A stretch of DNA of 64,000 bases, taken from the NCBI GenBank assembly GCA_903813345.2, contig CAIIXF020000005.1, positions 2,542,001-2,606,000 of the forward strand. The letters are read 5' to 3'. Source of the stretch: Owenia fusiformis. Its lineage: Eukaryota > Annelida > Polychaeta > Sabellida > Oweniidae. A program made the position numbers and the translations under genes. Shown in pieces: positions 16,801-56,800 of the stretch; position 1 is the stretch's first letter; every line of letters starts with the position of its first letter. The notes beneath the pieces are model-generated. The model had not been told where the DNA came from and did no database searches. It was given only the letters and a program-made list of their open reading frames with translations.

Positions 16801-19800
16801 AAGTAAATTTTGATGAATGAATAATTCACATAGATTATGTATTCATTAATCTTCACATTAAGAAAATTTATACAAAAAATGATTTATTCTGTACAAGATG
16901 TGTGTTTGTTGTTATCGTACAAATATTAATATATGCATCTATTATTAGACTTCGATAATTTATCGACCCAGGAACCTGGTACCCAGAAGCCTCTGGAAGC
17001 TAGTACCCAGAATCCTCAGAGATACAATATAGATAGGGAAATGCTTGGTTGTATTTCTTGGTTCTAGTTGGCTCTATTTCCTGAGGATATAACTTATAAA
17101 ACCAGACTCAAATATGCTCAGTTGAGTTCAATTCACAGCCCATAGTGTTAAGTCTGTTGTCGTTCAAGTTGTTGGATTTAATAGGCATGTTTTGTTGAAT
17201 TTGAAGTAAATGACAGTAATTGAAAATTTATTTAACGTTTTTGAGAAGACATTGTGTTGATTTAATTATTCCAGATAACGATCAAAATGTGCTGGCCCAG
17301 TTTTGTATCATTTTAACGCTTTTATATATTCTTCCGATTCTCAATAGGCCTCTTACAAGATCTGAGTTGGGATTATATTTATGACACTCAATGGTAATGT
17401 AAAAACAGGATTGATCTATAGCCATGTCACGAACATTCTTTCTCCAATTATTACATCCCGGAAAACATCGAGAGAGGCTCAGCAGATCAGGAATCAATGT
17501 AGAAAGAAATACATACGTCTTATTGTAAGTTAGTTTTTAAGCCTTTGGAGCAGAGGCTAACAATTGGCTGTTGAAATTTTCATTACATATTGATTCTTGA
17601 TTTTTATTTGATAATCACAAACAGTTTTTGATTCAGTTATTAAGATGAGTTTTCAACCCACTTTTTAGCTTATTATCTCTGTCTATATACAATGATGTCC
17701 AACATTGGTCATTGATATTCTACACATGCTGATAACTTGAGATCAGAGATCAAGAGTCTTTAATTTGTTAATAAAGAAAACATAATAAATCTGGGCAAGA
17801 TATTTTAAAAAAATGATCTAAAAGGTTAAGCACTTCTATTAAGTCTATGAGTCACATTTTCGATATATGCCACTGCTACAGCATCAGAAAACCTCTAAAC
17901 ATCCATTTAAACTCAAAGCTCTGTCAGAGACAAATATACAATCAATAGATTGTAATTCATCATAATTAATGTTATAAATAGCACTCTAACACATGTATCC
18001 TTCACATTGTCAAGATCATCTTGTCACTTCTGATGAAATCAGATTTATTGTTCATTTTTTTGAGATTGGACAGATATTTATGGATATTACATGCCTGTCA
18101 GTAAATCACATTCAGTAAAGCTGTCTTTTTGTATAATATAAACATCCTAACTTGTGATAAGAAAAATATATATATACATGTATATTCAAATTGAAAAGTA
18201 TGTCCTTTAAATATATATTTTTAAACACCTTAATTAATCTTTGCTCTAACTTAAGTTAAGCAATAAATATTATTGACAGAACAATGGTAGAAAGTGCTTG
18301 GTATTGATAAGAATAATGAAAAAATCAAATGGCAAACTGAACTTTTTGGGTCACCTTTACATAACCTATGAAAACTAAAAATAACTCTTCACATGTAAAT
18401 CCATTAAGAAAAGTCTGCAAACATCTGTGCCTAATTTAGTCTAAGAATGTAATTCAAAGTAAAAGATGGCAAAACTTTTCAAGATCAGTCTGATAGAACC
18501 TGTCAAAATTCAATCTACAGACTCAACAATTACCGAATTTTCTGATTTAAATATGCCATAAAGGATCTGACCCGATGTTCACGCAATATTTTTACATTCG
18601 CTTAATTAAATACAGCATTAGGAACCTTCCGTTGAGTTCTCTGCCATGTCAGTTACATAGTGTGGGTGTTCGTAAGTGGGAGTCGCTATATTGGCCTATA
18701 TTTCTGCTTTATACTGGCTATATCAGTTGTATTGATTTGTTAAAGTCATTACGCTCTATCATTTCTATCTTCACAAGCCATTGGTTGTTCTAATTGAAAC
18801 TTGGTTAACCTATTGAGACGAGGTTCGCAGTGCATGTTATTTGAAACAAACTGTGTTGATCACAATGGTTTAGTAGATGTTTTTTATCTGAATTACAAGG
18901 ATGTTTCTTTATGTTAAAGATTCACCATCCCTTGATCTCTAAAGATATCAAAATACAGTAATTTCTCCCAAACATGAAACGATAGTTCGATTTGTGATAC
19001 ATATACTTTAGATCTTATCCTGGCTTTGTTGAAGTAGTCACATAAATTGTAGACCAGCAACAGCTTCACAAAAATCAAACAAGTAAAATGTTTGCAACAT
19101 ACATATACTACTTTTCTTGATTTTCACTTTGAATTTTAGAATAGATTTGGTCCAGAAGATTTGCCATTATCATGTTGCATTCTGGGAAAGGATGTCCTTC
19201 TGTTACAGGAACTATAGCGGTGGTTAGTCTGATGATCGGCAACTTAGTCCAGAAAGAAACATCAATTAATTTTCCTCCCCTTTCTTTCAATCAGTCTGAG
19301 ATTGGGCAAAATGGTAACATTAACAAAATATTTTTAGTTTTAAATACTGAATTCTTTGCTGAAAATTCATATGTCTTTTCTATGTGATGCCATTTGTTAT
19401 TCTTTGTTTTACTTCTGCACAACTTTTTAATACAGTTTTATAGCACCCAATTATTTTTTGGTGAAATTATATTTTTAGAGCCAATTCCAAGATGAGAATT
19501 GGGTGTTGTGTTTTACTGAGAGATAAGTTGTCTTATATTATTTGGACTTTTTTTCGTATTTCATTTCCCTGGACCTGCTAAAAGGTTCTCATATGATTGA
19601 TAATTTTATTCCAAAAACTTTGTTATGCACTTTTACCTTACAAAATCTGGATACGTGATTAATGCAAAGTTTAAAATTTCATTTATATAAATTGTCTTTG
19701 AAATCATATGCTAAAGTGCAGCACACCTTGAAACTAAAAAGACCCATCACGTTTTCCCATAAATTCATTAGTTTTAAAGAATGTACTGCTTTATCTATTG

Positions 19801-22800: not shown

Positions 22801-25800
22801 ACACGTTTTTGCTGTTGCAGGAACCTTTGCTGTGATCAGTCTAATGGTCGGGAGTGTAGTGGACAAAGAGGTCATCAATGATTTCAACGTGAATAACCCT
22901 CCACCCACTACCGCACCGGCCCCTACCATGGACCCCTTGGCCACAACAGTGTCATTTAGTTATGGTAACATTACTGCCATGATGAATGGGACCCAGGGTC
23001 CTTCAGATGGGATGCAGGAGTACAACAAACGCTTGGTAGAGTACCAAATAGCTACAGCGTGTTCTGTGACTCTGCTAGTCGCCTTTATGCAGGTTTGTAG
23101 AAAGATTTGATATTGTATATCCCTTGTATGTTCAATACTGTTAAAACCTCATTTTTGAAAATCAATAACTTCTTTGTACAACATACTGAACTAAAATCAT
23201 AAAAAAACAAGTCAGTTCTTTTCATGTCACTACCATTAGTAGTGACATATTTCAGAGTTCAACATTCAGTGACTGTAACAAATGGCAGGTGGTGACAGTT
23301 TGAATGTTAATGCCTTTTTATCATCAAAAATAGTACTGGCAAGATGTAAATATTAAGCATTGGTTTACTGCAGTATATTTCCATATACATTTCCATTTCT
23401 GTCCAGGAAGACTCAGAACTTTTCTTCATGCTAAGATATTAACTATTGTGCATATCATATTTTGTTTGTAGCTTGGTATGGGCATCTTACGCCTTGGGTT
23501 CCTCACTATCTACCTGTCTGACCCTCTCATCAGTGGCTTTACCACAGGGGCAGCCTTCCACGTCCTCACCAGTCAGGTGAAACATATGTTTGGACTCAAC
23601 CCTGGACGATATTATGGAGCTTTTAAACTCATTAGAGTAAGTGATTGCATTGTAAAGTAAGCAATGAATTATTTTTCTACAGAGTCATGCCAAATAAGGC
23701 GATTGTTTCAATGCCCCATTTGAGACCTTTGAATACCATTCATTGAAACGTTCCATGACCTCATGCAGGTACACTCAATCATTCAATAAGTCAATAATGA
23801 TATGATGTGTGTCTAGGTAATTCATCTGACAATATTAGAACTGCACTCAGAATTAATGTTGATTTGCCAATTCTTTTTTATGGCAACAGTTTCAGAATAA
23901 ATATTTGTAAAATGTTGCATGTGATTGAACAAATTATTATATTATTTAGTTTTAGTTTGTATTTTGTCCCAAATGTGAAAGTAACAACTTTTATGATATG
24001 CATAAAGATAGTGATTCTGACCTTCATTTATTGCAATAGCATTTATTTAGTATTCATACAGACTGTATTCTAGAAAAAAACAAACTGTATTCTAATTTCA
24101 GACTTGGATAGATTTATTCACACAGATTCCCCAGACAAACTTTGGTGCATTGATTACAACTGTGGTCTGTGTAATAGGGCTGGTTCTCGTCAAAGAATGC
24201 ATCAATGCACGCTTCAAAGACAAACTGAAGATGCCAGTGCCAATAGAGCTGATAGTGGTAGGATAGATTCAACTTTAATGAGGGAGGGAGGGGGAAGGGG
24301 GAGGGGTATTGTGTCTCTCCTTTCTGATTATTTGCTATTTGAAAATTAAACTGTTGGAATTATTGAAAGATAAAATAATTAAATCTAATATCACAGAGAT
24401 CTTCAAATCATCCTTTGAAGTTCAATCCAAAATTAGACTCTTACAAACCTGGTCCAACCGTTCTTTGCTTTTTGTGATTTTTATGTCATATGAATATACA
24501 GTTTTGCAATTTAAGATTTAAAAGAAGACTGGTTACCTCACCCTATCCATTAATAACAAATAGTTTGCTGAATGGGAATAGAATTAACCAGTCGGGTTTT
24601 TGAATTGTTTTCATGCAAATTTATTTCTAACATGTCTTAGACCTGATTAACTGAATGCATTGAATTTGTTTCCAGGTCATTGTCGGAACTGCAGTTTCTC
24701 ACTTTGCAAAGTTCAACGAGAGATTTGATATGAAAATTGTTGGCAGCATTCCAACTGGGTGAGACACTGAACAACAAATAATTTAATTTAAATAGCCCAT
24801 TTGGACTTTTTAGTAATTGTAAGTAATTAATAAAAGGGATTAAGTGTTTATTTCACTTTTAAATTCATTTTGATTTCATCAATCTAAGATTGAGTCAGCT
24901 TTTAGAAAAGGCTGTGATTAACAATCATGTTTAATTTTTGGGCCTGGATTTGAGGGGAGTTTGAAAGAAAAAACATCTTCATGTACCTCTAAAAAATTTG
25001 GAGTTTAAACTGAAAGTAAGATTTTCCTGCTTGATAATGAACCACTGATTTTAGCGTTGAATCAGATTCAGGCTTTTTCTGTGATATACATGTAAGTGTC
25101 CATCTATTATCTTACACCATGTAAGAATTGTTTGTTCTAATTCATAGGATTCCACCACCCAAGGCACCACCAATGAACAGGATGGGAGAGTTTGTTGGCG
25201 ATGCATTTGCCACGGCAATAGTAGCTTTTGCCATCACAATCTCAATGGCAAAGATCTTTGCAAAGAAACATGACTATGAAGTGGACTCAAATCAGGTACA
25301 ACTCGAAGGTTTAGTAGAAGTATATACAACATGTACAGTTTCCGATTCCACATAAATTCATTAGTGAACGAAAAGAAATGGAATGAGTGATGCCCAGTTG
25401 ATTTAAATTAATATCTCAAGTGGTTACATATTTTTATGGTCTCTTAATTTTTTTGTGGACAGTGTTTGGCCATTGGTGTTTGGTGTCTGTAACAAATGGC
25501 ATGTGGATGGTGTCATTTTGCATGTTAATGCCTTGTTGTTTCTTCCAGGAACTTATTGCTGGTGGAATAGTGAATGGTGTGAGTTCATTCTTCAGCTGCT
25601 ATGTCACTGCTGCGTCTCTGTCAAGGAGTCTTATACAAGATACAGTTGGAGGTGTAACTCAGGTATGTTCTATATGTACACTACAATGAAATATGGGTAA
25701 GTGGAACACCTTTGGTACTTCAAAATTATATTCCATTTGGGAGGAGTTCCACGAGCAGAGATTTGTTTTACATTTAGTTAATGGGATAGTGTTGCACTTA

Positions 25801-28800
25801 TTGAGGTGTTCCAATAGCAATTGTGTCCAATTTACTGTATGAAACCCATATACTAAAACATGACGAGAAATGTGATCATTTATGTGGCACAGGATGTGGG
25901 ATCTTTTAATAAACATGTTCATTTGTGACATATGGTTACATTGATCTAAATGTGCTAGTGTGCAATTAAAATAAAATCATGCCTTGACATGTACATTAGT
26001 GGCATGACAGATGTAATTATAACTGACTGAAATGTGCAAGTGCGTCTTCCACATCTATATCACATCATGTTCATTAGTGACATGTTAGATGTAATGATAA
26101 TTGACCTAAATGTTCAAGTGCGTCATCCACATCTATATCTATATCACACCATGATGCCATGTTGTTGCAACCTTATACTCAGTCTACTTATATATGACTT
26201 CTGTAACCATGACAACTGCTGTTTTCCAGGTGGTAGGTCTTGTATCGTGTGTGCTGATACTGGTGGTCCTGCTAGCACTAGGACCACTTTTTGAGTCCCT
26301 GCCAAATGTAAGCAACTTTAATATCATCTATACCTCTGTAATTGTCTAGATCATCAATATAAATTACAAATGTTATAGTATTCCAATTTTCTCATGTTAA
26401 AATTAAGCCCAGAATACATCAAGGAATAAAAATGAAAAAAGTGTACTGTTAGGATTATTCACTTAGATTTTCTCTAAAAATGATTTTTGGATAAAATTTC
26501 TATAGATTAAGCAAATTATGAATGTTTCCAGTGTGTATTAGCCTCCATTGTATTGGTGGCATTAAAAGGGATGTTTCTACAGTTCACGGAATTTAGACGT
26601 CTTTGGGGTTGCACCAAGATGGATGCAGTAAGTCCCCCACAATGCATCTGTCCCTCTTCAATGTCCTCCTTTGCTATATTTGCCAGCTTTGATTGGCTCA
26701 AAGCATCTTGTCAATATCTGGGCAACTTGTAGCTTTCTTGCTATTTATTGCTCGAATGCTCTTTGTTTAACACAAAATTATTTTTAGTCTTTTTAGTTGA
26801 ATTTCCACTTGGAAATCTTTGGGAGATCTTTTCACTACTGACTGCTTTTTGGCTACTTCATACTACCACTCTATCTTTCAGATACGCTGCCTCTACCTTT
26901 CAGATGCGCTGCTGTGTTGTTTTGACCCAAATACCTACTAACATATATACTTTTCTACCAGTTTCATTTTACCACAGGAATGATGCCAAAGGATTTACAC
27001 GGCTGTTGATCAATCAGGGTTTCATGAATGTGGATCTGTTGTTTTTACTAGGAACTACTTTCTCACTAACTCCTTATTTTATGTTCCTTTAGTGTGTTCT
27101 AGCTGCTATTATCCTGGTGGCTTTGAAAGGCATGTTCAAACAGTTCACAGAGCTACATAGACTCTGGAATGTATGCAAAGTCGACTTTGTAAGTATATGG
27201 GCTACACATCAATGTTATATTATGACCTGCACACCAGTGTTACATTATGACCTGCACACCAATGTTACAATATGACCTGCACACCAATGTCACATTATGA
27301 CCTGCACGCCAATGTTACATTATGACCTGCACACCAATGTTACATTTTGACCTGCACACCAATGTTACATTGTGACCTGCACACCAATGTTACATTATGA
27401 CCTGCACACCAATGTTACATTATGACCTGCACACCAATGTTACATTATGACCTGCACGCCAATGTTACATTTTGACCTGCACACCAATGTTACATTATGA
27501 CCTGCACACCAATGTTACATTGTGACCTGCACACCAATGTTACATTATGACCTGCACACCAATGTTACATTATGACCTGCACACCAATGTTACATTATGA
27601 CCTGCTCACCTATGTTACATTATGACATGCATACCAATGCTATATTATGATACCATGCATTTCAATATAGAGTGATATTTTCCCATTTCCCTTTACTAAT
27701 AATTCTAATCATTTCTGGAAGTTGTGTAAAGGACAATGGACATACATGTACAGTATTTTGTTACCAAATACTTCTTGAATTTACATTTGTAAGAACTATT
27801 AATGTATGTCTTCCCAAAATATTATTTTCAGAAACTACTGTACATGAATAATTATTTAAATAATTGATGAAAAGAAATGTCATGTTCATTTCAAAACATA
27901 ACGTCATATCATAATCTGTTTGTCTTTGAATTCCAGATGGTGTGGTTGGTGACTTGGGCGTGTACTGTGTTCTTAGATGTTGACCTTGGTCTCATTATTG
28001 GGGTGGGATTTTCCCTGCTTACTGTAGTATTCAGGACTCAAAGGTAAACAATTAATAGGAAACAGTTTAGTCCAAAGTATTGTTTGATTCAAATTTATCT
28101 GTTGAACATAATAAACTGTGGTTGGAAAATTTCAGGCCTCACACTTGTATTCTGGGCCATGTGGTTTATTTTAATTTGAAACATTTCAGGCCTCACATTT
28201 GTATTCTGGGCCATGTGGTTTATTTTAATTTGAACATTTAAGGCCTCACACTTGTATTCTGGGCCATGTGGTTTATTTTAATTTGAACATTTAAGGCCTC
28301 ACACTTGTATTCTGGGCCATGTGGTTTATTTTAATTTGAACATTTAAGGCCTCAGACTTGTATTCTGGGCCATGTGGTTTATTTTAATTTGAAACATTTC
28401 AGGCCTCACACTTGTATTCTGGGCCATGTGGTTTATTTTAATTTGAACATTTAAGGCCTCGCACTTGTATTCTGGGCCATGTGGTTTATTTTAATTTGAA
28501 CATTTAAGGCCTCACACTTGTATTCTGGGCCATGTGGTTTATTTTATTTTGAACATTTAAGGCCTCACACTTGTATTCTGGGACATATGGTTTATTTTGA
28601 TTTGAAACATTTCAGGCCTCACACTTGTATTCTGGGACACGTGGTTTATTTTAATTTGAAACATTTCAGGCCTCACACTTGTATTCTGGGCCATGTGGTT
28701 TATTTTAATTTGAAACATTTCAGGCCTCACACTTGTATTCTGGGCCATGTGGTTTGTTTTAATTTGAAACATTTTAAGCCTCACCCTTATATTCTTGGAC

Positions 28801-31800
28801 ATATGGTTTATTTTAATTTGAAACATTTCAGGCCTCACACTTGTATTCTGGGACATGTGGTTTATTTTAATTTGAAACATTTCAGGCCTCACACTTGTAT
28901 TCTGGGCCATGTGGTTTATTTTAATTTGAAACATTTCAGGCCTCACTCTGGGACATATGGTTTATTTTAATTTGAAACATTTAAGGCCTCACACTTGTTT
29001 TCTGGGCCATGCGGTTTATTTTAATTTGAACATTTAAGGCCTCAGACTTGTATTCTGGGCCATGTGGTTTATTTTAATTTGAAACATTTCAGGCCTCACA
29101 CTTGTATTCTGGGCCGTGTTGCACATACAGATCTCTACAGAGATGTGCAGATGTATAATGGGGTAAGTGCATTTAAAAAGTCTTGTATCTAAAAGTATAA
29201 GAACAATAATTACTGAATGTCTTTATTGAATAAGCTGAGAACAGTCTTGAGGAACGTTTGCAAATCGCATACATGTACATGCACTGATTAAATTGTAAGA
29301 GATAATTCTGCACAAAACATTCCTTCTCGTCCCTACAACAGTGATAGATGTTATACCTAATTTCATTTCATACAACTTCTTCATATTTTAGCTGAAAGAG
29401 ATTCCTGGTGTGAAGATCTTCAGATTTGAGGCATCACTGTACTATGCATCAAGGGAACACTTCAAGGACAAGTTATATGAACAAACCATGTGTAATCCTC
29501 GCAAGATAAAGCAGCAGAGAGTCAAAATACAAAGAAAAATTGATAATGCAATTAAAGATGAAAAGAACAAATTCAAAAAATCTCAAAAGGTATGATTCTT
29601 CCATGTGTTCAAATAATGAAAACACAGTTAGCAGTTACTCAAATATGTACGAGATGTAACAAATTCAGTTTTATAACAATCATAAAAAGCTCATGTACTT
29701 TGTTAAGGAACACAATTTTAAGGTGTACCACGATTTGAAGGTCATCTTATTGTATGCCATTTAAGTTTTACATGAGTCAAAATATTTGTCAGTATTTTTT
29801 GTTACGTTCTTGTTAAGGTTAATTTATTTCATTTTAATTACATGTATACATTTAAACAAAAACTGGTAATACAGTTACAATTCAATGTGAATGAAATACA
29901 AGTCTAGGTCAGAAGACATTTTTGGCTTTTCACTGTACAATCCCATCTAACCCATCCAAAACAGTTTTACATGTTTTTACTCCTCTATATGGCTACTAAT
30001 TTTTAGGAATAAAAGATTAATTAAAATTGCAGCATTCATCCAACCTTTCAAATTTTCTTAAATCTCATTTCCAGACAAAAGAGAGCACAGAATTAACTGA
30101 GTTTAATCGGGAAGACTTTGAAATAAGGATTAAAGGGGAATACCCGATGCCTTCATTTGAAATTCACCACATTATAATAGACTGCTCCACCATGGGTTAT
30201 ATAGATAGTGTTGGGGTGACGGCTCTTACACAGACCATAAATGAATATAAGGAGGCGGATGTAACAATCTTCCTAGCCCACTGTAAAGGTATGGATTGAT
30301 GGGTTCACTATATATATGCTTTTTGAATTAAGGAGAGATTCGTGCTGTGCAATTATCTATTACAGTTTAATGTCAGCAATCATTGTAAAGCCATCTGCAA
30401 TTATCTATTACAGTTTAATGTCAGCAGTCATTGTAAAGCCATCTGCAATTATCTATTACAGTTTAATGTAAGCAGTCATTGTAAAGCCGTTTGCAATTAT
30501 CTATTACAGTTTAATGTCAGGAATCATAGTTAAAGCCATTTTCAATAATTTGTTACAGTTTAATGTCAGCAATCATTGTTAAAACCGTTTGCAAGTATTT
30601 GTTACAGTTTAATGTCAGCAATCATTGTTAAAGCCATTTGCAATTATCTGTTACAGTTTAATGTCAGCAATCATTGTTAAAGCCATCTGCAGTTATCTGT
30701 TACAGTTTAATGTCAGCAATCATTGTTAAAGCCATCTGCAGTTATCTGTTACAGTTTATTGTCAGCAATCATTGTTAAAGCCATCTGCAGTTATCTGTTA
30801 CAGTTTAATGTCAGCAATCATTGTTAAAGCCATCTGCAATTATTTGTTACAGTTTAATGTCAGCAATCATTGTAAAGCCATCTGCAATCATCTGTTACAG
30901 TTTAATGTCAGCAATCATTGTAAAGCCATTTGCAATTATTTGTTACAGTTTAATGTCAGCAATCATTGTTAAAGCCATTTGCAATTATTTGTTACAGTTT
31001 AATGTCAGCAATCATTGTTAAAGCCATTTGCAATTATTTGTTACAGTTTAATGTCAGCAATCATTGTTAAATCCATTTGCAATGATCTGTTACATTTTAA
31101 TATCAGCAATCATTGTTAAACCATCTGCAATCATCTGTTACAGTTTAATGTCAGCAATTTATTGTTAAAGTCATGTTCAATTATTTGTTACAGTTGATGT
31201 CACTAGTTTTGCGACTGGCATCTGGTATTGGTGTCAGTATAAACAAACTGCTACACTTTTGTTGTATTTTCCAGTATTTCCCCTCAGTCTTCAGATTTAC
31301 ATATACATTGACTGAAAGATGTCAGGTGGTCACATGTTGTCATGTTAATGCCTTGTTTAATTGGAAGTGTACTGTTCTTGTAGCTAATAGTAAATATCAC
31401 TCATTAGTACAATTGTTTTGTTTCATCCTTACACTGTTGGTATATTATTTCATGTAGGTAATGTGAGGGAGATGTTACATAGAGCTGGGTTCTTTGATCG
31501 CCATGATAGAGGTATGATCTTTCCCACTACCCATGATGCAGTGCTGCATGCCCTCGACAACTACCAGGATGTAAAAGCAGATGTGAGTAGGAGTCACTAC
31601 TATGATTTTCCATAATTTTGGTGTACAGCATACCTTTATAATTTATTTTGAATACACATAAAAAACTCAAGATTTACCTATTTGTATTTAAACTCATCAC
31701 CAAAGTTATGGAAAATATCTTGTAAAGTTAGAAGTAAAATGCAGTATTATGTTTGTCATGATAGTTTAAATAACTGTACTTATAATTAATCAATCCTTTA

Positions 31801-34800
31801 CAAAAATAGCAATAGCCAGTTGTCTTTTAAAGATATATTCTATATAAACTTGTTTAACTTTTGTCGTTGTGGAATGTGTTTTGTTAACAATTGATTGATA
31901 AACATCCAGTTACTATAAGTTGTTGTTCAGCTGCCTGCTTGTGTTTTTATTATTCGAATTTCAAAACTAATCCAAATTAAATAAGATTGAAATCACAATC
32001 TTCGTAAAGCTTTTTGAGCTCATGATATACCAAATATATCAGAGATCTTGTGATTTGAAATTTTAGATAACACCCAATAATGTTAACGAATCTTTATGAA
32101 TCACACCATATCCCCTAATTAAGTACTGAATGCTGAAAAAATGTATAGATATATATACAAGATAAGTATAAAGTAATCCTCTCACCTTGATGGTATCCTA
32201 GAATATGTCAGTCAAACCCCTAAAAACCCAAGTACATTTGATTTCACCCCAAACATTTTGAACACTGAAGTATTCCCCTCTCTCGACCCCTCCACAGCTA
32301 TAAGCTATAACCTAACCTAAAAGTATTCCCCAAAATATTATTTTGAAACAGTAATTATAATCTACAGTACTTAAGCAACTATGATAGTGCTCTTTGCTTG
32401 TCTTTGTTTGAATTCTGTTTCCTAAGACTAAGAATGCTCCCCCAAGCTCTTCAATAAGGAATCTATTATAGAAGATTATGTTTAAGTATTGTTGCCCATT
32501 ATTACATGTTGAGTCTCTTACAGAGTAACGGAGGTGTATCTCTTAGAGAAAAAGTAAGGCTTGTTATGTTTTTATCTTGGAAATTTGATCATGGGTTGAA
32601 ATGATCTCCTAAAATTACCCTAGTAACATCTACACTAAAAACACAACACTAGGATATGGTAGTTTGGTGGTAACTTTGATACACATGTTTTTTTCCATAT
32701 CTTTCTTTCCAATATACCAGTAGATGTTGATACTAATCTAGCACATGTTGATTTCTTGGAGTTCTATACAATAGATGTAGTTGTTATAGTAAAAACTATG
32801 GTTTTTGTTTTACTTTGAAATTACCTATTTTTATTTTTGACTTATTTGCTTAACCCATGTGTAGCATGTTGCTTCTCGTATGTGAGTATGTCACTGTTTC
32901 AAAGCACCTGGTAGTGGTAAATCATATGTAGAGGCATCAGACCGAGGTGGGTTGGGTGGCATGTGTATTACAAACATTTGCCAATATGATTCCAGTGAAA
33001 TTTAAAATGGCCAGCACTTTTACCATTGAAAATCACTCTGTTCAGACAGTGTATGTAATGCATTCATTCACATGAAGTTGTATATGTAGTTTAGTTTATT
33101 ACTAATAAGGTCAAAATGGATTTTGAAATATCACCTTTTGGCCATAGTTTAAAAGCTCAAACTTTTATTGAAAACACATCACCCTGCATGCCCAACATCA
33201 GCTTTTACCAAGGTGTGGTTCATGTTTAAAAAATTCCTCGGGGAGTTCACTTTTAACAACTTTGGCCCAAAAGTGGCCATAACCACTTGAATGGTGAAAA
33301 TTTGAATGATCCCCCACCCCTCCCCCTAGCTGAACTGAATGTTCTCGGACAGAGCAATCTACTGGGATGGATCTAACCAAGAACTTAAAAGACCAGTTGC
33401 CTGCATTGCAAATCACTGCAGGCAGACCTCTATTATACCTGCTTCACCATTGACATACTTAAATGCATAAGCAATGTAAATATATTGGCATACATAAATG
33501 CAATGGCATATTTATATGCATTGGCATATTTACATGCATTGGCATACTTAAGAAGCAACATGTTACTCACCATTTACATGTAACTAATTTACTAATCTTA
33601 ATCAAGGCAAATTGATATTTTTTTAATGTTGAAATTATTATTTGTTATTTTAAATGTATATTGTAATGTAAAAGTTAGAATGATGCTAACCAAATGCTCA
33701 GAATGTTCATCATAATAACCTAATACTAAAAGTTGCTTTTTGTTATTTGCATCGAGTGTTGTTTATTTGTTTAAAAAATGTAATATTTGTTGTTGTTTTG
33801 ATTATTATACTAATCAAATAACATGTATACAGGATATATCATCAATGAGGTTTGTATTGTTTTATAGTTAGAACGAGACTGTGTGTTTTTGGGTAGTGCC
33901 ATATCGTATACAGGAAGTGGAAATTTATATGACGACGAAGAGATCCAGGGGGCCAATAACATTCCAGAAATAACTATAGAGGATGCAAATGAGGATACAA
34001 AATCAAAGAAAAATGGTGGTCTAACAGTAAGTAATAGTATTCATTTGAGATGAATGAGACTGGTCAGTAAGAAATATTTACTGATTTAAGATTTCAAAAC
34101 TATAAAATGCATTTTAAAAACCCATGTAATACATGTAAGTATTTTGATACATAATTAGTACATATTTATATCTATTAAATCTACAAGTTTCAATCCTCTT
34201 TTAAAGACGTCAAGTTTCAATCCATTTTTAGAAAATTACAAGTTACTGGAGTTCATATCTGACCTTTGATTGTAGAGTTCACCATTTGTTAACCTTCATA
34301 AGTTAAAAACACCTTCCAGCCTCTGTTAGCCTGGAATCTTGCTGTCTAGTTATTTATTGTGCATTATATTTCAGGAACCTTTAATGGATAGTGGTGCAAA
34401 GAAGCTTTGACCTACACATAAACATGTGTAGTCTTGTATATATTATATATAGGTAAGATATTTATATGTGTAATATGTATTATGGATATACAGTTTAGAG
34501 ATAATCCCATATGAGGTTCAGGATATTGGGATTACCCCGATGCCAGTAAAATATATCTGCCTGAGGGGTAGAGGTCCCAATGGGAATATAGAGATTATCC
34601 TATGTGAAGTTCAGGATATTGGGATTATCCACAGGCCAATGTAATATATCTGCCCGAGGGCCGCAAGTCCTGAGCAGATCGCGATTGTCTGCCTTTTTCT
34701 CCATTGTCGTTTAGAGTTATTATGCAAACATTACAAAAATGATATGCGAAAGTCGATTATGATGTAGCGGGCGTATATCTGCCTGCTCGGAGTGGGACGT

Positions 34801-44890: not shown

Positions 44891-47800
44891 GTAAATATAC
44901 AAGCTAATCAAGTTGATACTGCAGGGGTTTCACTAGAATTTCTAACAACAGGCTAAATAAATTAAAACCGCTGGCAAAATTAAAGGAAATCATGAATTTA
45001 ACATGGAAAAGTTGAAAAGTCCCTAAAAAGAACAGGCAATTTGGTGAAAACAACCTGTGAAAATCGCCTGTTGCCTGCTGCTAATGAAACCCCTGTACTG
45101 ACAAAGGTCCAGTTTTATAAAAGAGAACTGATTTCATTAAAGGTAATCTGACTGAAAAATTGACCTTTATGCTTGGTGATGAGACTTTTTCAAAATGGGG
45201 GCAAGACTATTTTAGATTATTTGATAGCATTGTAAAACGCTTTTTAATCCAATTGTACAAGGCCAGAGATTTATGCCTTTGATTATTTTAGTATATGCAA
45301 CATTGTTTTAAAAAAATATACACGACTTTGTATTTTATTCATATTGTATACAATTTTCTTGAATTCTCCAGATGCATACAATTTTCTCTAATTCTCCAGA
45401 TGCAGATGCGCTGTGATGGCTATGTGGGGTTCCCAGGTGGCATGGTAGATGATGGAGAGAATATAGAAGCAGCAGTCAATAGAGAACTCAGGGAGGAAAT
45501 AGGACTCAACTTGAAAAAATACGAAATCACGAAGGAGGACCATTTTATGAGTCAAGTCAGTGAATTTAAGAAGTTGTGTCTTCATTTTTATGTGAAGAAA
45601 GTGACATTAGAAGAATTCTTTGAGATTGAGATGGATTGTCTGAGAGCCCCTGACCATGGCACTGAGGTAAGTGATAGCCATCTATTGTAATATGATATTA
45701 ATTTGTTTTGTAATCTAATATTAATTTTGGTATTGTAATCTAATATTAATTTTGGTATTGTAATCTAATATTAATTTTGGTATTGTAATCTAATATTAAT
45801 TTTGGTATTGTAATCTAATATTAATTTTGGTATTGTAATCTAATATTAATTTTGGTATTGTAATCTAATATTAATTTTGGTATTGTAATCTAATATTAAT
45901 TATCATTCTGAGGTACCGTGGTAGATGATAGTTGAGGTCATGTGACCTTTTCAAAGATAATCCATAAGAAACTGTTCAATAGAAAAAAATTCCCTAAATT
46001 GCATTTATAACTCTAAATAGATATATAGATGTCATTACTATCAATGTAGATTGCCAGTCGTTAGAATTAGAAATAAAATGCAGATGCAAAACTTGATTAA
46101 ACGATTTTTTGGGTGCAATGGTGAGGTCATCATATTGATTATTAAGACATATCTACATGGAAAGAGGAGACTAGTGTGCATTAATGCGAGCGAAGCAAGG
46201 ACCAAAAGGGAGGGGGGGTATTAGGGTTCACCCCTGAAATTTTTTAAAAATTTACATTGCAGGGGTTTCACTAGAATTTCTCATAACAGATTAAATATAT
46301 TTCGGCCATTTTGATAAGAGGTGAAACCTCCCTCGTTTCCTGTTCATCGCCAGTGAATATATTGCCAATCTATGCTCATACATATTTTTTCACAATGACA
46401 TGATAAGTTTCATAAGGATATGGGTTGTATGGCTGTTGGTTACAACCAGCTATAAACAAGCAAGTCACAAGTATGAATTCTTTAATTTGATAGCCTAGCC
46501 CCTGTGCAGATTCAGTTTTGATAAGACATTCAATGTTGATTTTAATAAAACATGTAATTTTTAATGACATAAATTATCTTCTACTATTTGAATATTTTTC
46601 TTCAATATGAATGTTTTATCACTACGTGTACTTTTAAATTTATTTTGAGCATGTATTGAAACCATCTGGTTCCCTTTTGAAACTACAATGAATGGTACAG
46701 ATTTTTTCAGTTCAGTGAGTTGACAATGAGCTACTAGATTGGCATTGAAACCTACTGAAATATGCAAAGGTTTTGATGAATGAGCAACCAATAATGTCTA
46801 TTGATTAATCTAGCTCTTGCCGCATGTCATATCGACAATATGAGTCACTGGTTAAAGCAGTTTCATTACTGCAGCATGTTAATATATTCGATCAATAAAA
46901 ACTGATGCCAAATGCAGGAAAAGTGTTCAAAGTATCGTCGAGATGATAATCGTAGCATTAGTGACAACGGTTTGCCTTGTTCATGCTGATAATATAGCAG
47001 TTAAGCCATCTGATGTGATCACAAACATTGGGAATGATATAACACTACCATGCCAACTTGCAGAAGGAGTAACACATGAATATGTTTCATGGTATGAGTT
47101 CAATACGAAGGAGAATGGATTCCAAATATTTAAATCCAATGAACCAGACAGGGTTCAGAACTCAGACAAGTTTGAAGTTGACACCATTAAAGCGAAGTAT
47201 AACTTGAAAATACTGAATGTATCTATTGAGGATGCTGGGAAATACACCTGTCAAACATTTCTAGAACAACAGCGATACCCAGCCTATGTCACTGTTTATG
47301 AGCCACCCTTGTGCGACTATGTCAGAGCAAGTGGGAGTAGTATGACATTAATGTGTAATATCAGATACACTGGCTTTGCCAAACCATCATTGAAATGGTT
47401 CCGGAATGGCAAGGAGATGCACTCAAATATGGCTTATGATATTGATGATCAGAGCGCAACTATGAATGTTACGTTTGATGTCTACCATGCAGACATTGGT
47501 GTGAACTTTACCTGTCGCGTGAGCAGTACAGACCAGCCTAAATATGTCGGGGATTCATGTACAACCATACTGAATTGGAATGATAATGAAGTAAAGGCTG
47601 CATATAGACTATCTGCCGCTGAACTTGTCATTAGAGATCAAGGTCTTTTCCTTATTTCTCTATTGGTTTTCTTTTGTGCCATAGGCTAAGGGTTAGACCA
47701 TTGCTTGGGGTGCAACCTTTCTAGAATACCATGGATCTGATTATTAATGAAAAAGTGTGACTTGTAAAATGTGGAAGATAGAAAAATCATCATGATTTGT

Positions 47801-50800
47801 ATGGAATCTCAAGGTCAAGATTCAGACCATCAAAAGATACATTGAGTGTAAAAGATGAGGCTCCCAAGATCTATGTTCAGCTCTAATCAGAACTAGAGGA
47901 TGGAGGAGTATTAATAAATGGAACTAGTATGTACAATTATAATATGGCTTCATAATGTAAAATAATTACCACATTGGAAATAGCTGCAATTATTATATGC
48001 ATAGTGATCACTGCGATTCTCAGAAGTAATGTACATAATTTATGATCTGATGTATCCAATATTTTCCAATATGCTCAACACTTACAGATTGAATCAATGA
48101 TTAATAATATGAAAACTAAAAACCCAATGAATTCATATTAATTTTTAATCTACAGTGTCTAGGAAATTTCAAAATATAAATACATTGTATAAATGTACAA
48201 AAGTAAATATGATTGATTTGATAAATCCTGCCCTGTAGGCCTACCCCTCTACAGCCAAAATCAGGATATACTGTATGGTACCAAGGGTGATATATCATTG
48301 GAAATATCATCCAAAGTTACATTGATTTGCATATATCTGCTATCCGTCAATCATGTGTCACAGTTGCTGCATTGTATCAATTAAGGTGACCACTGACCTA
48401 GAAATATGGCAATTTGGCATATTTGGCAGCAGACAAGTCAAAAGAACTCGAGATGACAACATTAATATGGCAGTGAATTTAAACAATTTGTATGGTTGGA
48501 TATGGTTAGATGTTGATGGCAATGGAGAGTGATGGAGACTATATTTTGTAAGAAGTAGATTGCAAAAAGATGTAATTTGACATATTGTTGAGGCATATCC
48601 TTCTCACTTTGACACTATATAAGCTGCTAGAGGGGGCACAAGAACTATCAAAGACCTTGTGATATTTTTTCCAATGATATATTACACTAGATACCATCTA
48701 TTAGGTTTTAGCTGTAGAGGGGGGACTTATTTGACACCTTGCATAAGGGCACTGTACATTGCACCATTCACATGTACATGAATTAAGATGTTTGAGATAT
48801 GGAAGATTACAAAAATTGTATGCTTGAGGTTTAATTCTTTTGCAATTTAATATTGCATTTAGCAGAACATTAGATTGATATTGTACCACTGATTTATAAA
48901 TGTAGTAAGTCTGCATATCATTTTTGACTATAAATAGACTGCATCTTAAGCAACTTTGGTCATATTTTAAAAATAATGTTTAAAATGACATTTTAATCAG
49001 AATTGCTGCTCATATTATCAAGATGTTAATTCCAATTGAAATATAAACATTTTAGCTTTGTGCTGATGACTTGTCTGGCAAAACGTGATTATATTGCTAG
49101 CTTATCTTTTTTTAGTCATGTTGAATTTCATGTCAAATGACATATATTTTTGTATCTATTTATTGTAGTTAGCTTAGGGTGGTTTTGGCTTATTTTTACA
49201 CTGTGCTGTACACTGTAAGATAATATTTCATTGTTATGTAGTATGTTATAGTACTATTTTATACTCATTTTATGTACTACAATTATTGTATGTATTAAAA
49301 TTATTGTATGTATTACAATTATGTTGTTAACAATAAATGTCTTACATGTATAACATTTATCTTGAGTCTTATCCATGCATCTTATCCATTACGTCATCTA
49401 AAAAGGTATAGATTAAACAAAAATTTTATGTTGAACTATAATCTTTATCTTTTCTGTTTTGAAAAAATGTCTTATAAAATATATTCAATAAATCTTGTCA
49501 TTAGGATTCCAGGAACACTGCTTGGTGGTACGCATTTTCGAGAATACCAACTTTATACCTCCTTTAATAGTCCTCTATATACTACTTTACATTAAATATT
49601 ATTATTATGAGCTTTATTATACTTGTATCCCACATTTGGGCAAAGTGTACAGCTTAAACAGAAGAAAATGAAAAAGCTTAACTAATTATCTATATAGTAT
49701 ATTAACTAATCAAAGGGTGCTTGATCATTGCAAGATTTTATTGGATGCATTTCGTGTTTTTTTCTCTCTCGATAAAAATATTGGATATATATTTTGCTAG
49801 TATATTTAATATTATTCCCTCTGAATTAAATAGAAACATTAATTTATGTTCCACGTTATTCATGTTTTCTAAATTTTGACAGTGTTTTTTTATTTTATCC
49901 ATATAACTCGACCGAACATCTTTTAGCGTATTGCATTCTAATAGGAAATGGCATTCTGAACCAGTTTTCTTGTTACACATTAAACATTCTCTTTCTTCAA
50001 TAGGGGTAATTGGTTTTGTGTAACGACCTGTTTCGATTTCTAATTTATGTGCGCTAATTCTTAGCTTTGTCAAGTTATTTCTGTCTAATTCATTTTTGAT
50101 TAAATCCAAGTAGGGTTCCTTGTTCCATTTTGCTTTTATTATCTTATAAAACCTCAATTTACCATTATTTGATTTTATTTAAATTAGTTTCCCAAAATTG
50201 TATGTATCTATTTTCCAGTAATTTCTTAATTTCTCTTGGTTTTAAGTTTAAATAGTTTGGTGAAGTACCATTGTAAATATATTTAAGTACATCATTGATG
50301 TGCGTGAGCCATGATTGTTTATTCATATCTGTCAGTTGTTTATTTACCTCAAGGGCTTCACGTAGAAGTGAGTCGGTTCCTTTATTGTTAATATGATTAA
50401 GATATTTCATTTGTTGATAAAACAAAGAAATAAATAGTGGAAACCTACCTAAATCGCCTCGTGTAGCGTCATTACTGGCCTTTCTGTTAACACCGAGTAT
50501 CGATTTCATAAATGATATATGAAGAGATTCAAATGTTATTCCATCATATCCCTTTTCTAATGCCCATTGTGGGTCTTTTTTAATTTTTCTCGAGTTTAAG
50601 ATACCCGTACCCCATATATCAGATCCATAGAGGCATATGGGCTTTATGAGTTGATCAAATAGTTTTAAGCATAATGATGGTTTCATATTACCATTAGAAA
50701 TTAGACTTAATAATTTAAATTTTGCCTTTTCAGCTTTGTCTTTGACATGCTGGGCTGCAGGTCTCATTGACCCACTTATGCTTAATTCCATTCCCAGGTA

Positions 50801-53800
50801 AATGTATCGTGAAACAGATTCTATTTTGTAATTTCCTATAAAGAAGTGATTATCAATAAGTCTACCATTTTTATTCATTACCATAATTTTGGTTTTATCA
50901 GTGTTGATATTTAAGTGCCATTCTTCACAGTATTTTTCTAATTTGTCCAATTTGGTTTGCATTTCATCTTTTGAGGATGCGATAATTACTAAGTCATCGG
51001 CAAAAAGGAGGCTTCCAATTCGCGTATTATTTAATAAAGGGTCTGTTTTGAGATCTAATGTTTTAATAATGTCATTTATATATATATTAAATAGAAGAGG
51101 ACTTAGGGGGTCCCCCTGTTTTATTCCCTTGTTACAGTCAAATTCATTGGTAAATAAACCCTCATTATCTAGTCTGACTCTTGCTTTTGATTGTGAATAT
51201 ATATGTTTTATCATTTTATAGAATAAACCGTTTACCCCCGATTGCAAAAGTTTCAAAAATAATCCATCATGCCATACCGTATCGAAAGCTTTCCTCAAAT
51301 CAACAAAACACATATATATATTCCCTTTTTCACTTAGTACATATTTATCCACGAGGGTTCGTATTATGAACATGTGGTCAGTTGTTCGTGCTTTCTTTGT
51401 GAAACCGGCTTGATTTTCCGATATTATTTTTCGGTCATGTACAAAGGCGTAAAGTCTATTATACAAAATTATTGAAAATAATTTGCCAAAGCAATCAGAA
51501 ATAAAAATACCTCTGTAATTGCCAGGGTCTTTCGTCGTTCCTTTCTTAAATAACGTAACGATTGATGAAATATTCCATTTCTCAGGGAAAACTGTTTTGC
51601 TTAGTAATATGTTAAACATTTTACAGATAACATTATTTAAAACTGAGTATGACACTTTAATCATTTCATAGCTAATGCCGTTAAAACCCGAACTCTTGTT
51701 GTTCTTTAATTGCTTAACTGCCTTGTAAACCTCGTTTTCTGTTATTCTGAAGCTAAGTTCGTCAAAATGATTGTCATTTTCTATTGACTTAACAATTTCG
51801 TTGACTTTTTTGTTGATTTCGGTATTTTTATCCTTTTCAAATAATTTGGAAAAATGTTCATGCCATTTCTCTGGTGTTATATACGCGGACTTATTGTTTC
51901 CGTCTTTGTGCCTAAGTTGCTCAAGTAGGGACCAATATTCTTTAGGGTCATTGTCATAAAGTTCTTCTAATTTATTTATCATATTAGTTTTAAATTTCCT
52001 CTGTTTTATCTTACAGCATTTCCTATATTCCTTTAGCAACTTGAAGTAATTACCTCTAATCATATTATCATTTGGTGATTTTATTAGTTTTGCTCCAATT
52101 GACTTAACCTTTCTTTTCAGTATACTGCAATCATTATCAAACCATTTTTGAGATATCGAGCCCCCTTTCTTTTTACAGGGTAACTTTTTTCGTAGTGTTC
52201 TTTTTGCTGTGTTAATTATAATTTTTTCGAGCTTGTCAATACAATCATCAATATCATAGGTGTCGTTTAGCTCGTCATTGAGTTCATTTATATCATTTCG
52301 TGTTTTTAAATTATTGGAGAGGTCCGTTTTAAATTGTACCTCGCGACGGGCGTCCCATTTATATTTGATTGGTTTCATTTTGATAGTATGCCCATTGTTT
52401 TTAGTCCGATTGTTACCGTGGTCGTTTGGTATTCGTACTTGCATTAATAGAGAAATCTTGCAATGATCAGAGAGCACACAAAGGTTATCATGAACCTTGA
52501 AGTACATAATATCTGGAAGCATATTTTCATGAATAATACAATAGTCAACTACACTGCTTCCGTTCCATTTATGGCAGGTGAATCTACCGGGCGAATCCCC
52601 AAGTACTCTGCCATTTATAATTCGTAAATTAGATGACCTGCATAGGTCTAGTAGCTTCTTACCCGAAGCATCAACAACTGAATCCATGCTGGAACGTTCA
52701 TTGATGGTGACATCGTTGGGACAAAGCAGAATGTTTGGGATATGATCATCATAACCGTGATTATTTTCAAAATCGCGTACTTCACCTGTTCTTGAATTAA
52801 GATCTCCCATAATCATAACATCACCTATATTAGAATATTTATTTATTTCTTTTGTCAAAATCTCGTATGGCCCAATTGAAAAATAAAACTAATTACCAAC
52901 TTATTACCAACTAATTTACAACTAATTATCAACAATTCTGCTGGCAATTGGAATTAAAGTTAAGCGTTAATTAAATCAATGATAATTATGGCCTAATTAT
53001 CAGTAACAAGTTCAACGTAAATTAACTTACAATAATGCTGATTTATGATTTTTAGTTGATAATTAACCTTTAGCGTGCTGCCGGCGGACGAGTCCGCCGA
53101 GACTAAAATGTCTCTCACAACTGCCGGCGGACCCGTACGCCCGATTTCAAACTTTTAAAAACTTTACTTTTTCGCGCCATTCGTATTGTCCAATTAGATT
53201 GCCCGATTTATTCAGTGCCTAACATGACTTCCTGTTGACCTAGAAATGGCGATATTTCGAAAAATAATTCTCAATTCAACAATTTAAACAGTGTTTTAGT
53301 CGTTTTTAGTTAACGAATCGTACAAAATGGTGGACAAATACGATCACAACGAAAATGTGGAGGAAATTGATTACGATTTCGAGCTCTTTAGGCTCTTGGA
53401 AGCCGATAACGGTCATCGAAACTAGAAACTAGAATATTTTCTGAATTGAAAAATTGAACATTCGATCGCTGCAAATTCAGATTTGGATTCTGACCAGACG
53501 AAGAGGCGGAGCGGCGGATTCCGGAGGAGTATTCATGGTATATTTATGCCCAGTCGTGTTAATGTACGAATAAATTCATGAGAACATTTTTTTTCATGAG
53601 CCAGGCCACTGTATCTTCCCTTTGTGAAAATTTTATCCAGATTCATTCAGTAGTTATTGAGATATTAATTATTTAGTCCAGGCATATCATTTTTTGCACT
53701 CTTTGAAAAATAAGCCAGTTGCGTGGGATATATTTGCTGAAATAAGGCAGCATGGTAAAGGTTAAGATATGAAATGTTTGAGGGTGATAGTAAGTGGTAA

Positions 53801-56800
53801 ATTAAAACGTTTTTGTTCTGAAGTAGATTATTGGTTGATAGTTAACATATAGGATGATTATAATGATAATTAGTCGTAAATTAGGCCCATGATTTAGAAA
53901 TACAAACCCCCTAAATTTAATTTCAAGATGGTGGAAAAAGAAAACATGTGAGAGATATTTCTCTCATAAAATTGAGAATTACAACGTGAATGGTGTGTAT
54001 ACTACCATGAAATTTGGTCAACATTATTATAAGGGTATGTAGAACATGAATACAATGTATGTTAAATCTTATTCACACTTCTGTCTGAAATGTTTATGAA
54101 TTTAAAAATCTTTTTGAATCAGATCATATAATATTAATCCTAGAATGCAATTTAGGTACTAACATGGGTTACCTATATTTCACAAGTAATCCAAATGTGC
54201 TCTTCTAAATAATGATTGTTAGATCAAAGACATTTCAAAACATATTTTTGATTATATCTGTTACGTCCTTATTATGTAACATTATAGTCTAATGTTTGGG
54301 TTCTGATTTTAGTTGTTGATGGCAATAATGATGTTTTCACATGCTTTTCATGAATCTTAAAAATTTGCAAAATAGAATAGCTTTAAAAAAGAGGGGGAGA
54401 AACCCCAGGGTTCAAAGATGACATACGCTTATAATGTAAATCTGTATTGAGATGACATCGTCGCTGATTGGTTTAGCGAGTCGATCGTTGATTGGTTTAA
54501 AACTAGGTCAATTTGAAAACTTTGAAAACCAAGACGGAGGGTACGTTTTCGACAAAAGGAGGTGTGCGAAGGAGGAAATCGTATGTCATCAATTGAATCA
54601 TGGGGTTTTCCCTCCTCTTGCTGTGAAATTTCAATAGTTCAAGTTCAATGTTGTCTGTTCTGAAAGATCCTAATTAAGATGAATATTCCGTCACAAAATA
54701 GTTCAAGATGATGCAAAAATCTCTGAGTGAAGAGAAGCCATCCTCCTAAGCAGGTGTCCAGAATACGTACCTCCTTCTTCCCCCTGCTATAACCAATTTG
54801 GACGCGCCCGATTTAACTGAATCACGTGATCTAATTATGCGCAATGACTTATACATGATTTCTGTCGCAGTGTTGCGACAGAAATCAGATTGCGAGTTCT
54901 TAATCGGGGAATTGCTAACTGCTTATAGCAGGGTGTAAAAAGAAAGAATATATTCTGGATTTTGAAGCCCTGTGATCGGAGGATGAGAGAAGCAAAAAAG
55001 AAGCGAGTCATTTTTGAGATGTCACAAATCTGACTTAAACCTAACTTTCAACTAATTATCAATAGTAAGTTAGGTGATAATTAGAGATTAACTTACATCA
55101 AACTTACAACTAACTTTCAACTAATTTACGTAAATAGCTCATTTGCATATTGATGGTAGTTAATCGTTAATTAAGTTGCAAATTAAGCGTTAATTAAGTT
55201 GATAATTAGCTCATTTGCATGTGAATTTTTACACCTAACTTTCAACTAATTATCAATAGTAAGTTAGGTGATAATTGGAGATGATTTTCCATAGGCTTTT
55301 TTCAATTGGGGGGTCATCCCCTGAGTTGAATTTACCTTTTGGGTTATAGTTTGCAGGTGAAAAATACGTTATACATAAGTAAATGTCATTACTTGTATTA
55401 AAGAACTTTTTTGAAAGTTTAACCCACAGGATATCTGGTGTCTTCATTTTGATTATTGTCGTTCCTGCTACATATGTATTTCTTATAAGTACAGCTAATC
55501 CGCCATGACGTTTCCTGCCAGATTTAGCTCTATTTACCGAAAATGATGTGAAGCTACCTCCCCAGATGTTGAGGCAAGGATATCAATTTCCAAGACCTCC
55601 AAGTAATATCCCGTCAGCTGCATGGATACCTCAAAGAGCCATGCTTCAAGATGTTCAGCTGAAATCAATGGATCCATCTATACTACATCTTAAGTCAACA
55701 AATCTACATGCATCTACAGCACCCATGTCAAATTCGTCCTTACAAAAAAAGCCAACAGGACCACAAGTAGCTTTTACTTCCCCTAAAACCCCAACAGCAC
55801 CACCGGTTGATTTAGCCCCTCCAAAAACCCCAACAGCACCGCCAATGGAAATACCATCACCTAAAACCCCAACAGCACCACCAATGGAGTTAACCCCACC
55901 CAATGCCGTAAAAACAGTCCTATCAGTAAATGAACATTTTCAGTCACAGATATCAACCTCTAACCGATTTGAGCCATTAATTGAAGAATATGAACAAACC
56001 CAAAATCCAGATCAGGGAAACAAAACTCAGGTAGAAACAGCCCAAGCATCACTCAAAACCTCAACAGCATCCAAAAAGGTATTGTGGATCGGTGATTCCA
56101 GACTAAAGAATGTTCAGAACATTGACGACAATATATATGTGATAATAGCTAACCCTGGAGATAGGATTCAAGATGTAAATCGAAGGATTTGCGATATGCT
56201 ATATGACAACACCATGTTCTCAGATGTCATCATAGACTGTGGGGTCAATAACATAAGGTCTGATCGTGACTCTCCTGATAAGTGCATGGAGCTAATGGAA
56301 AAAATCATCAAGGACATTCAAAAAGTAAGTCCAAAAATAAACATCATAATTGGTGGAGTGCTACCAGTTCAAAATGATGTAAATGTAGATATCAAAGTAA
56401 GGGAAACAAACAAAAAGTTACGGCATCTCACCAAGCAATACAGAAACATTATATACAAAGACAATGATGTGGTCTTTGTAGACCAAAACAATAAGATAAG
56501 ACCAGATCTATACAGAGATAACATCCACCCTAACATAGCAGGAACTGAGAAACTGAAAAATTTAACCATGAAGGTCAATAATAAAAAGTATCATAACAAT
56601 CATCTCCCTGAAAAATCAATCATAAAGAACCCTTGTTACTGCTGTGGAGAGACAAATCATCAAGCACGAAATTGTTTAATGAGAGTTAAATGTTACGTCT
56701 GCGGAGAATTGGGGCACAAAAGTAAATTGTGTCCTTGTAATTGTGCCTAGGGATACAGCAATGAAGAGGGCTCAGAGAATTATTTATGTGAGTGCTACAG

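Follow-up and report, generated by a model that had tools for sequence, protein, structure and literature searches.

We analysed a window of 64,000 nucleotides from the annelid Owenia fusiformis (contig CAIIXF020000005.1, positions 2,542,001 to 2,606,000 of the forward strand), which carries a gene of the SLC26 anion transporter family. We observed that the 3' splice junction of exon 12 of this gene is copied 18 times upstream, after which comes the real acceptor before position 29093 (all positions are those of the window). The array is a splice-junction-spanning minisatellite of the 'mirage' type known from lancelets, and by its sequence it appears to be a large member of that type. Both the sequence and the computational analysis make it very probable that the array is a neutral by-catch of intronic tandem duplication, with the real acceptor still in use and with no shown function. 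The assembly searched for comparison comprises 498.3 Mb in 525 contigs, of which C1 to C12 (32-62 Mb each) total 477.5 Mb. The elements of the locus are the following.

27937-28043, plus strand: SLC26 exon 11, 107 nt, the upstream partner of exon 12, with donor AAG/gtaaac (gene model; paralogous exons on C12 and C8).
28044-29092, plus strand: intron 11, 1049 nt, merely the first 92 nt of which lie ahead of the first junction copy.
28125-29119, plus strand: minisatellite of 54-, 53- and 46-bp units across the 3' splice junction of exon 12 (Tandem Repeats Finder, TRF; unit listing).
28778-28831, plus strand: copy that has lost its acceptor AG, with TAA ahead of the junction (unit listing).
28940-28985, plus strand: 46-bp unit that lacks 8 bases in its exon-derived part, and whose frame shift stops copies 28562-28940.
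29039-29092, plus strand: nearest upstream copy and sole frame-keeping choice, with an AAG acceptor; the unit is identical to 28349-28402.
29093-29162, plus strand: SLC26 exon 12, 70 nt, whose first base completes an R codon, with acceptor tttcag and donor GGG/gtaagt (gene model; homology; paralogous exon on C8).

TRF reported the minisatellite with a period of 54 bp, 18.7 copies and 92% matches, and its score of 1654 is far above chance. When the array was cut unit by unit, the junction copies were found to begin at 28136, 28190, 28243, 28296, 28349, 28403, 28456, 28509 and 28562 (copies 1-9) and at 28616, 28670, 28724, 28778, 28832, 28886, 28940, 28986 and 29039 (copies 10-18). Ten of the upstream units are 54 bp long, seven are 53 bp and one is 46 bp. 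The consensus unit consists of bases 1-23 of exon 12 and approximately 31 bases that end like intron 11. A preliminary description had already counted 18 junction copies before this exon, and TRF and the unit listing both agree with it. It had also held that each unit contains an intron end with its AG and about 23 exon bases; the 23 bases stood, while the AG is kept in 17 of the 18 upstream copies, the one without it being 28778. The three bases ahead of the junction are CAG in nine copies, AAG in eight and TAA in one. Copy 28456 reads GCCTCG. The array has unique flanks and lies inside a 42.5-Mb contig. No second locus was reported in the assembly by a DNA search that skips common words and is therefore not proof. 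A query of approximately two units matched this locus alone, hence the array is not supported as a dispersed repeat.

In its Sulfate_transp and STAS regions the host gene is homologous to SLC26 anion transporters. PF00916 (Sulfate_transp) matched exons in the window (5 of its 22 matches), and the peptide of exons 10b-15 matched prestin chain 7v73_A over the last transmembrane part and the STAS region (E = 1.1e-63). The exon 11/12 junction was free of gaps in both printed alignments, with prestin and with SLC26A6. This homology confirms exon 12. The intron positions of the gene recur in two multi-exon paralogs, on C12 and C8, and all 19 homologous acceptors tried (10 and 9, respectively) end in AG. 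Exon 12 of the C8 paralog has the same start and phase, with acceptor attcag; in the C12 paralog tblastn did not find exon 12. A third multi-exon paralog, L002 on contig C9, is more distant and was excluded from the counts.

Comparison of the units points to exchange within the array. Within each of three groups the units are identical: 5 and 18 (despite a distance of 690 bp), 1, 11 and 15, and 3, 4 and 6. The mean pairwise difference between units is 4.4 columns. TRF also detected a higher-order period of 213 bp. The identical distant units and the 213-bp period fit unequal exchange or conversion. The variation is blind to frame, as there are seven 53-bp units, one 46-bp unit, and eight AAG and one lost AG among the 18 copies. 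We counted 15 substitutions in the 23 exon-derived nucleotides and 18 in the 31 intron-derived columns. Nine of the 15 fall on third codon positions and five of these nine are one shared change, which leaves the count neutral as evidence for coding constraint.

We propose that the founder event was a tandem duplication of a segment that ran from the last part of intron 11 to base 23 of exon 12. The edges suggest slippage at a shared TGT, with TGTGG on the intron side and TGTTG on the exon side. Expansion and shuffling through unequal exchange or conversion would then have followed. Situated between the donor of exon 11 and the true acceptor, the copies are intronic, and the array would be tolerated as long as the last acceptor stays in use.

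The consequences of splicing to the upstream copies were assessed by frame arithmetic. Use of 29039 would add 54 nt, that is 18 stop-free codons with the frame kept, as the preliminary description had calculated, and this is unique among the 18 copies. The remaining 17 choices each reach a stop 125-921 nt ahead of the exon 12/13 junction. The description had expected truncation for most of them through a TAA brought into frame by the 53-bp units; truncation held for all 17, whereas, by our reading of the unit listing, that TAA stops only nine (28136-28509 and 28986) and the other eight (28562-28940) stay open as far as the single 46-bp unit and are stopped after its frame shift. Since 28778 has no AG it is not a canonical site, and so 16 of the 17 AG copies would yield premature stops. 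Stops at such a distance before the exon 12/13 junction are typical targets of nonsense-mediated decay (NMD).

We then scored the acceptors with a 20-nt position matrix obtained from 33 reference acceptors (14 of the host gene, without exon 12, and 19 of the paralogs). The real exon 12 acceptor scored 5.31, and 30% of the references were lower (leave-one-out). The first copy (28136) scored 1.87, the eight AAG copies from -0.49 to 1.23 and the TAA copy -3.33. The lowest AAG value, -0.49, belongs to the nearest copy, 29039. An A at position -3 occurs in 1 of the 33 reference acceptors. Among the other intronic AGs of the host gene, 42 of 537 scored at least 6. A further array was used for comparison:

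30348-31202, plus strand: 49-bp minisatellite within intron 14, off junction (TRF; acceptor scores).

This array is placed 1.2 kb downstream of the exon 12 array, and 16 of its 54 AGs scored 5.9 or more, above the real exon 12 acceptor. Since intronic AGs and AGs of the intron 14 array outscore the real site, decoys that resemble acceptors are nothing unusual in this gene.

Three introns of the gene carry minisatellites of different units (27205-27650, 28125-29119 and 30348-31202, with 17.8, 18.7 and 17.6 copies, respectively). The near-equal copy number, about 18, is probably a coincidence.

The spliceosome most likely keeps the last acceptor. Position 29093 would be chosen through exon definition, as the sole copy with the remainder of the exon and a strong donor (GGG/gtaagt) following within 70 nt. 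The frame-breaking units, the eight weak acceptors and the one dead acceptor point to copies that go unused. From this decay, the frame effects and the lancelet precedent we infer that the upstream copies are most likely ignored. RNA structure hiding the copies was rejected, as approximately five units (281 nt) folded with z = +0.44. No Rfam family was matched in 26000-32000.

To place the array in the genome, we surveyed splice junctions for local direct repeats (at least 25 nt, 75% identity, within 300 nt). The 136 junctions consisted of 30 SLC26 junctions of the window, 34 of the two paralogs, and 72 of 120 match ends that were accepted at the best 30 of 107 SNF-family and the best 30 of 106 p450 exon matches listed. 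The 72 ends (40 SNF, 32 p450) were judged by site score alone and some of them may be false; two of the 32 p450 junctions come from six loci with the domain in one frame (L037-L042). Junctions lay in a local repeat in 4 of 136 cases (3%), the exon 12 array included, or in 4 of 134 without L037-L042. Points 50-300 nt inside the introns did so in 5-12 of 136 cases per distance (4-9%), those 12 and 25 nt inside in 4 and 3 cases, and points 12-60 nt inside the exons in 0-3 of 136 cases per distance (0-2%). On a denser grid repeats were found at 647 of 8658 non-exon points and at 3 of 2937 exon-interior points. None of the 34 tested paralog junctions lay in a local repeat, and no p450 locus of the survey was flagged for a junction repeat.

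Further repeats were observed at donor junctions, and L015, L032 and L022 make up the rest of the four junctions counted. L015 (C6, near 5616150) has a repeat at the donor TTCAAAG/GTGAGT of an SNF-family exon, and L032 (C6, near 5610990) has the donor ACAAAT/GTAAGT twice, 57 bp apart, with 95% identity over 43 nt. In L022 (C12, near 25403200) a short degenerate repeat, in which GAGTAAGT is a frequent donor-like motif, runs from the apparent end of an SNF exon; the flagged point is 32 nt beyond that end, and the end itself lies inside the same repeat. At L029:1616-1774 (C12, near 25400500) a 35-bp unit in approximately 4.5 copies spans the donor TTCAAAG/GTAAGA of an SNF-family transporter exon, with two intact AAAG/GT copies and several decayed ones. 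This last donor is among the 136 and was found by TRF while being under the self-BLAST threshold; adding it would give 5 of 136. L015 and L032 belong to one gene region, apparently a single SNF-family gene, and L022 and L029 to another, so that the four donor-side exons represent two transporter genes and are not independent. Two other loci with a TRF repeat near a junction were not counted: in L013 the repeat ends just short of the acceptor, and that of L017 is of low complexity. Junction arrays thus recur in this genome, on both intron sides, at most at the intron-background rate. Within the window, a Nudt16-like exon has two copies of its apparent acceptor, in a 28-bp two-copy repeat at 45348-45404.

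The term 'mirage' comes from boundary-spanning tandem repeats in amphioxus Adh3 (Canestro and co-workers 2002, as related in papers citing it). PMC3087553 describes mirages in two amphioxus globin genes, one of which, BflGb6, has 6 units in one haplotype and 3 in another; many, not all, of the globin units retain AG/GT, and the Adh3 and globin data are taken to suggest that regular splicing is not interfered with. PMC3902484 adds a mirage in troponin C and similar repeats in PGBD5, with normal mRNA reported for the former and suggested for the latter. As in these cases (Adh3, BflGb6, BflGb9, troponin C and the similar repeats of PGBD5), the unit of the exon 12 array lies across an exon-intron boundary, is of minisatellite size and is present in many copies, most of which (17 of 18) keep the splice signal. 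Amphioxus mirages occur at either intron end and undergo concerted evolution within a cluster, as seen here from the distant identical units and the 213-bp period. The exon 12 array differs in copy number (18 upstream copies vs 6 and 3 units in the BflGb6 haplotypes) and in unit length (54 bp vs 150-160 bp in BflGb6, 157 bp in BflGb9 and 10-72 bp in Adh3). Its host is an annelid and not a lancelet; cephalochordate origin is outside the structural definition of a mirage.

Intron gain from tandemly duplicated splice-site sequence is an outcome proposed for mirages in PMC3087553. In the Owenia gene splice-site sequence likewise stands in tandem, while no new intron has arisen, as the C8 paralog has the same exon 12 start in the same phase. 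In human IFI6 (6-16) a minisatellite unit contains a splice site, so that there are several splice donors, which are reported to be used alternatively; that repeat is on the donor side, whereas the exon 12 array is on the acceptor side. Among open-licence papers we found no junction-spanning minisatellite from an annelid, which does not exclude a printed case. Minisatellites in the first intron of earthworm metallothionein are described in PMC12783039, the accessible part of which mentions no junction.

Several observations weigh against the array being neutral with only 29093 in use. Eight of the 18 upstream copies scored 5.31-6.09 over the 20 nt, equal to or above the real site. Acceptor sequence alone therefore cannot explain the choice of 29093, and the determinant has to lie outside the 20-nt site. 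Exon definition, the proposed basis for preferring 29093, is general knowledge. The consensus 54-bp unit is open in the coding frame only, which could hint at a coding past; this is offset by 5 of the 14 other junctions of the host gene, which would likewise yield an open 54-mer. The survey is small, its repeat points are correlated, and its intron points may fall in a further exon. PMC3087553 grants that mirage copies could serve as cryptic sites. For human duplicated genes PMC2812944 reports that boundary repeats change splicing, and that transcripts with the repeat retained also exist for 66% of the intron changes due to such repeats. Those repeats, in segmental duplications, are likewise of minisatellite size and at exon-intron boundaries, and according to that source they can form new introns in recent paralogs, whereas the Owenia array would most likely leave splicing unchanged. 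The eight strong acceptors, the possible role as cryptic sites and the human repeat-keeping transcripts leave some room for use of upstream copies.

The best placed of the alternatives is a regulated or noisy acceptor array, the upstream copies of which would be used at a real rate and mostly targeted to NMD, with array length tuning transporter output. The eight acceptors as good as the real one and the premature stops from 16 of the 17 AG copies would suit it, the first acceptor leaves a 92-nt intron and is therefore physically possible, and human boundary repeats can alter splicing (PMC2812944). Nevertheless we consider it improbable, given that eight of the 18 copies are weak AAG acceptors and one is dead, that junctions are not enriched in repeats (4/136), that stronger decoys exist in the off-junction array of the same gene, and that normal splicing is reported for lancelet mirages in PMC3087553 and PMC3902484. 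The preliminary description had offered the locus as a splicing buffer, a source of noisy isoforms or a length-variable regulator. Its anatomy and frame arithmetic largely stood, while these functional ideas found no support in view of the weak acceptor of 29039, the ordinary decoys, the lack of repeat enrichment at junctions and the undisturbed lancelet splicing. A length-variable brake, in which the 16 frame-breaking AG copies would sometimes be chosen and lead to NMD, allele length would set the amount of transporter and several genes would behave alike, is distinctly improbable.

It is very improbable that the array is an assembly expansion or collapse, the true array being absent or of another length. 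Tandem arrays are error-prone in assemblies, and one lancelet mirage was aberrantly assembled in a draft genome (PMC3087553). Nonetheless the units differ from one another, the flanks are unique within a 42.5-Mb contig, and PMC9977687 describes the Owenia fusiformis assembly as PacBio-based. The exact copy number may vary between individuals. Least probable of all is a protein variant in which 29039 would add 18 residues at the linker between the membrane domain and STAS, for which the 54 nt are stop-free and in frame, as its AAG acceptor scores -0.49, the prestin and SLC26A6 alignments are free of gaps there, and unit 18, an exact copy of unit 5, is not specially kept. We therefore retain neutral by-catch with continued use of the real acceptor.

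The host gene and its relatives showed other duplications. Two tandem homologous exons of 96 nt, 26532-26627 and 27093-27188, are identical at 58 of 96 nt and 22 of 32 amino acids, with the same phase and AG/GT ends, and tblastn found a single counterpart of the pair in each paralog (C8 and C12). They are likely alternative versions of one SLC26 segment, perhaps mutually exclusive. In a second homologous exon-like pair, 19209-19313 and 22821-23092, the first differs in length class and could be a duplicate that has decayed or is incomplete. Four loci (C5:15971005, C2:9593629, C5:10130397 and C5:10148692) have the whole Sulfate_transp domain in a single open frame of 751-770 amino acids, beside multi-exon relatives, and are possible retrogenes.

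The GC content of the window is 33% overall and 31.5-34.4% in 8-kb steps. Retrotransposon-like stretches with reverse transcriptase matches lie at 50168-52888 (minus strand) and 55509-59759 (plus strand), and a frame with GDSL-lipase and zinc-knuckle matches adjoins the latter. The annelid erythrocruorin linker family PF16915 had three genome matches over the cut-off (best E = 5e-7). Searches of the genome for GFP and for mollusc haemocyanin, both run without a positive control, gave no matches, and the assembly had no match to COX1.

In summary, these results suggest that arrays across splice junctions occur outside lancelets too. If the acceptors are used as predicted, the SLC26 gene of Owenia fusiformis would offer a natural experiment on how the spliceosome locates a true site among 18 near-copies, eight of them equally strong by sequence. 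The results also suggest that junction arrays form repeatedly where a genome is rich in intronic tandem duplication, and such arrays may supply the substrate from which introns are proposed to be gained through duplicated junctions.

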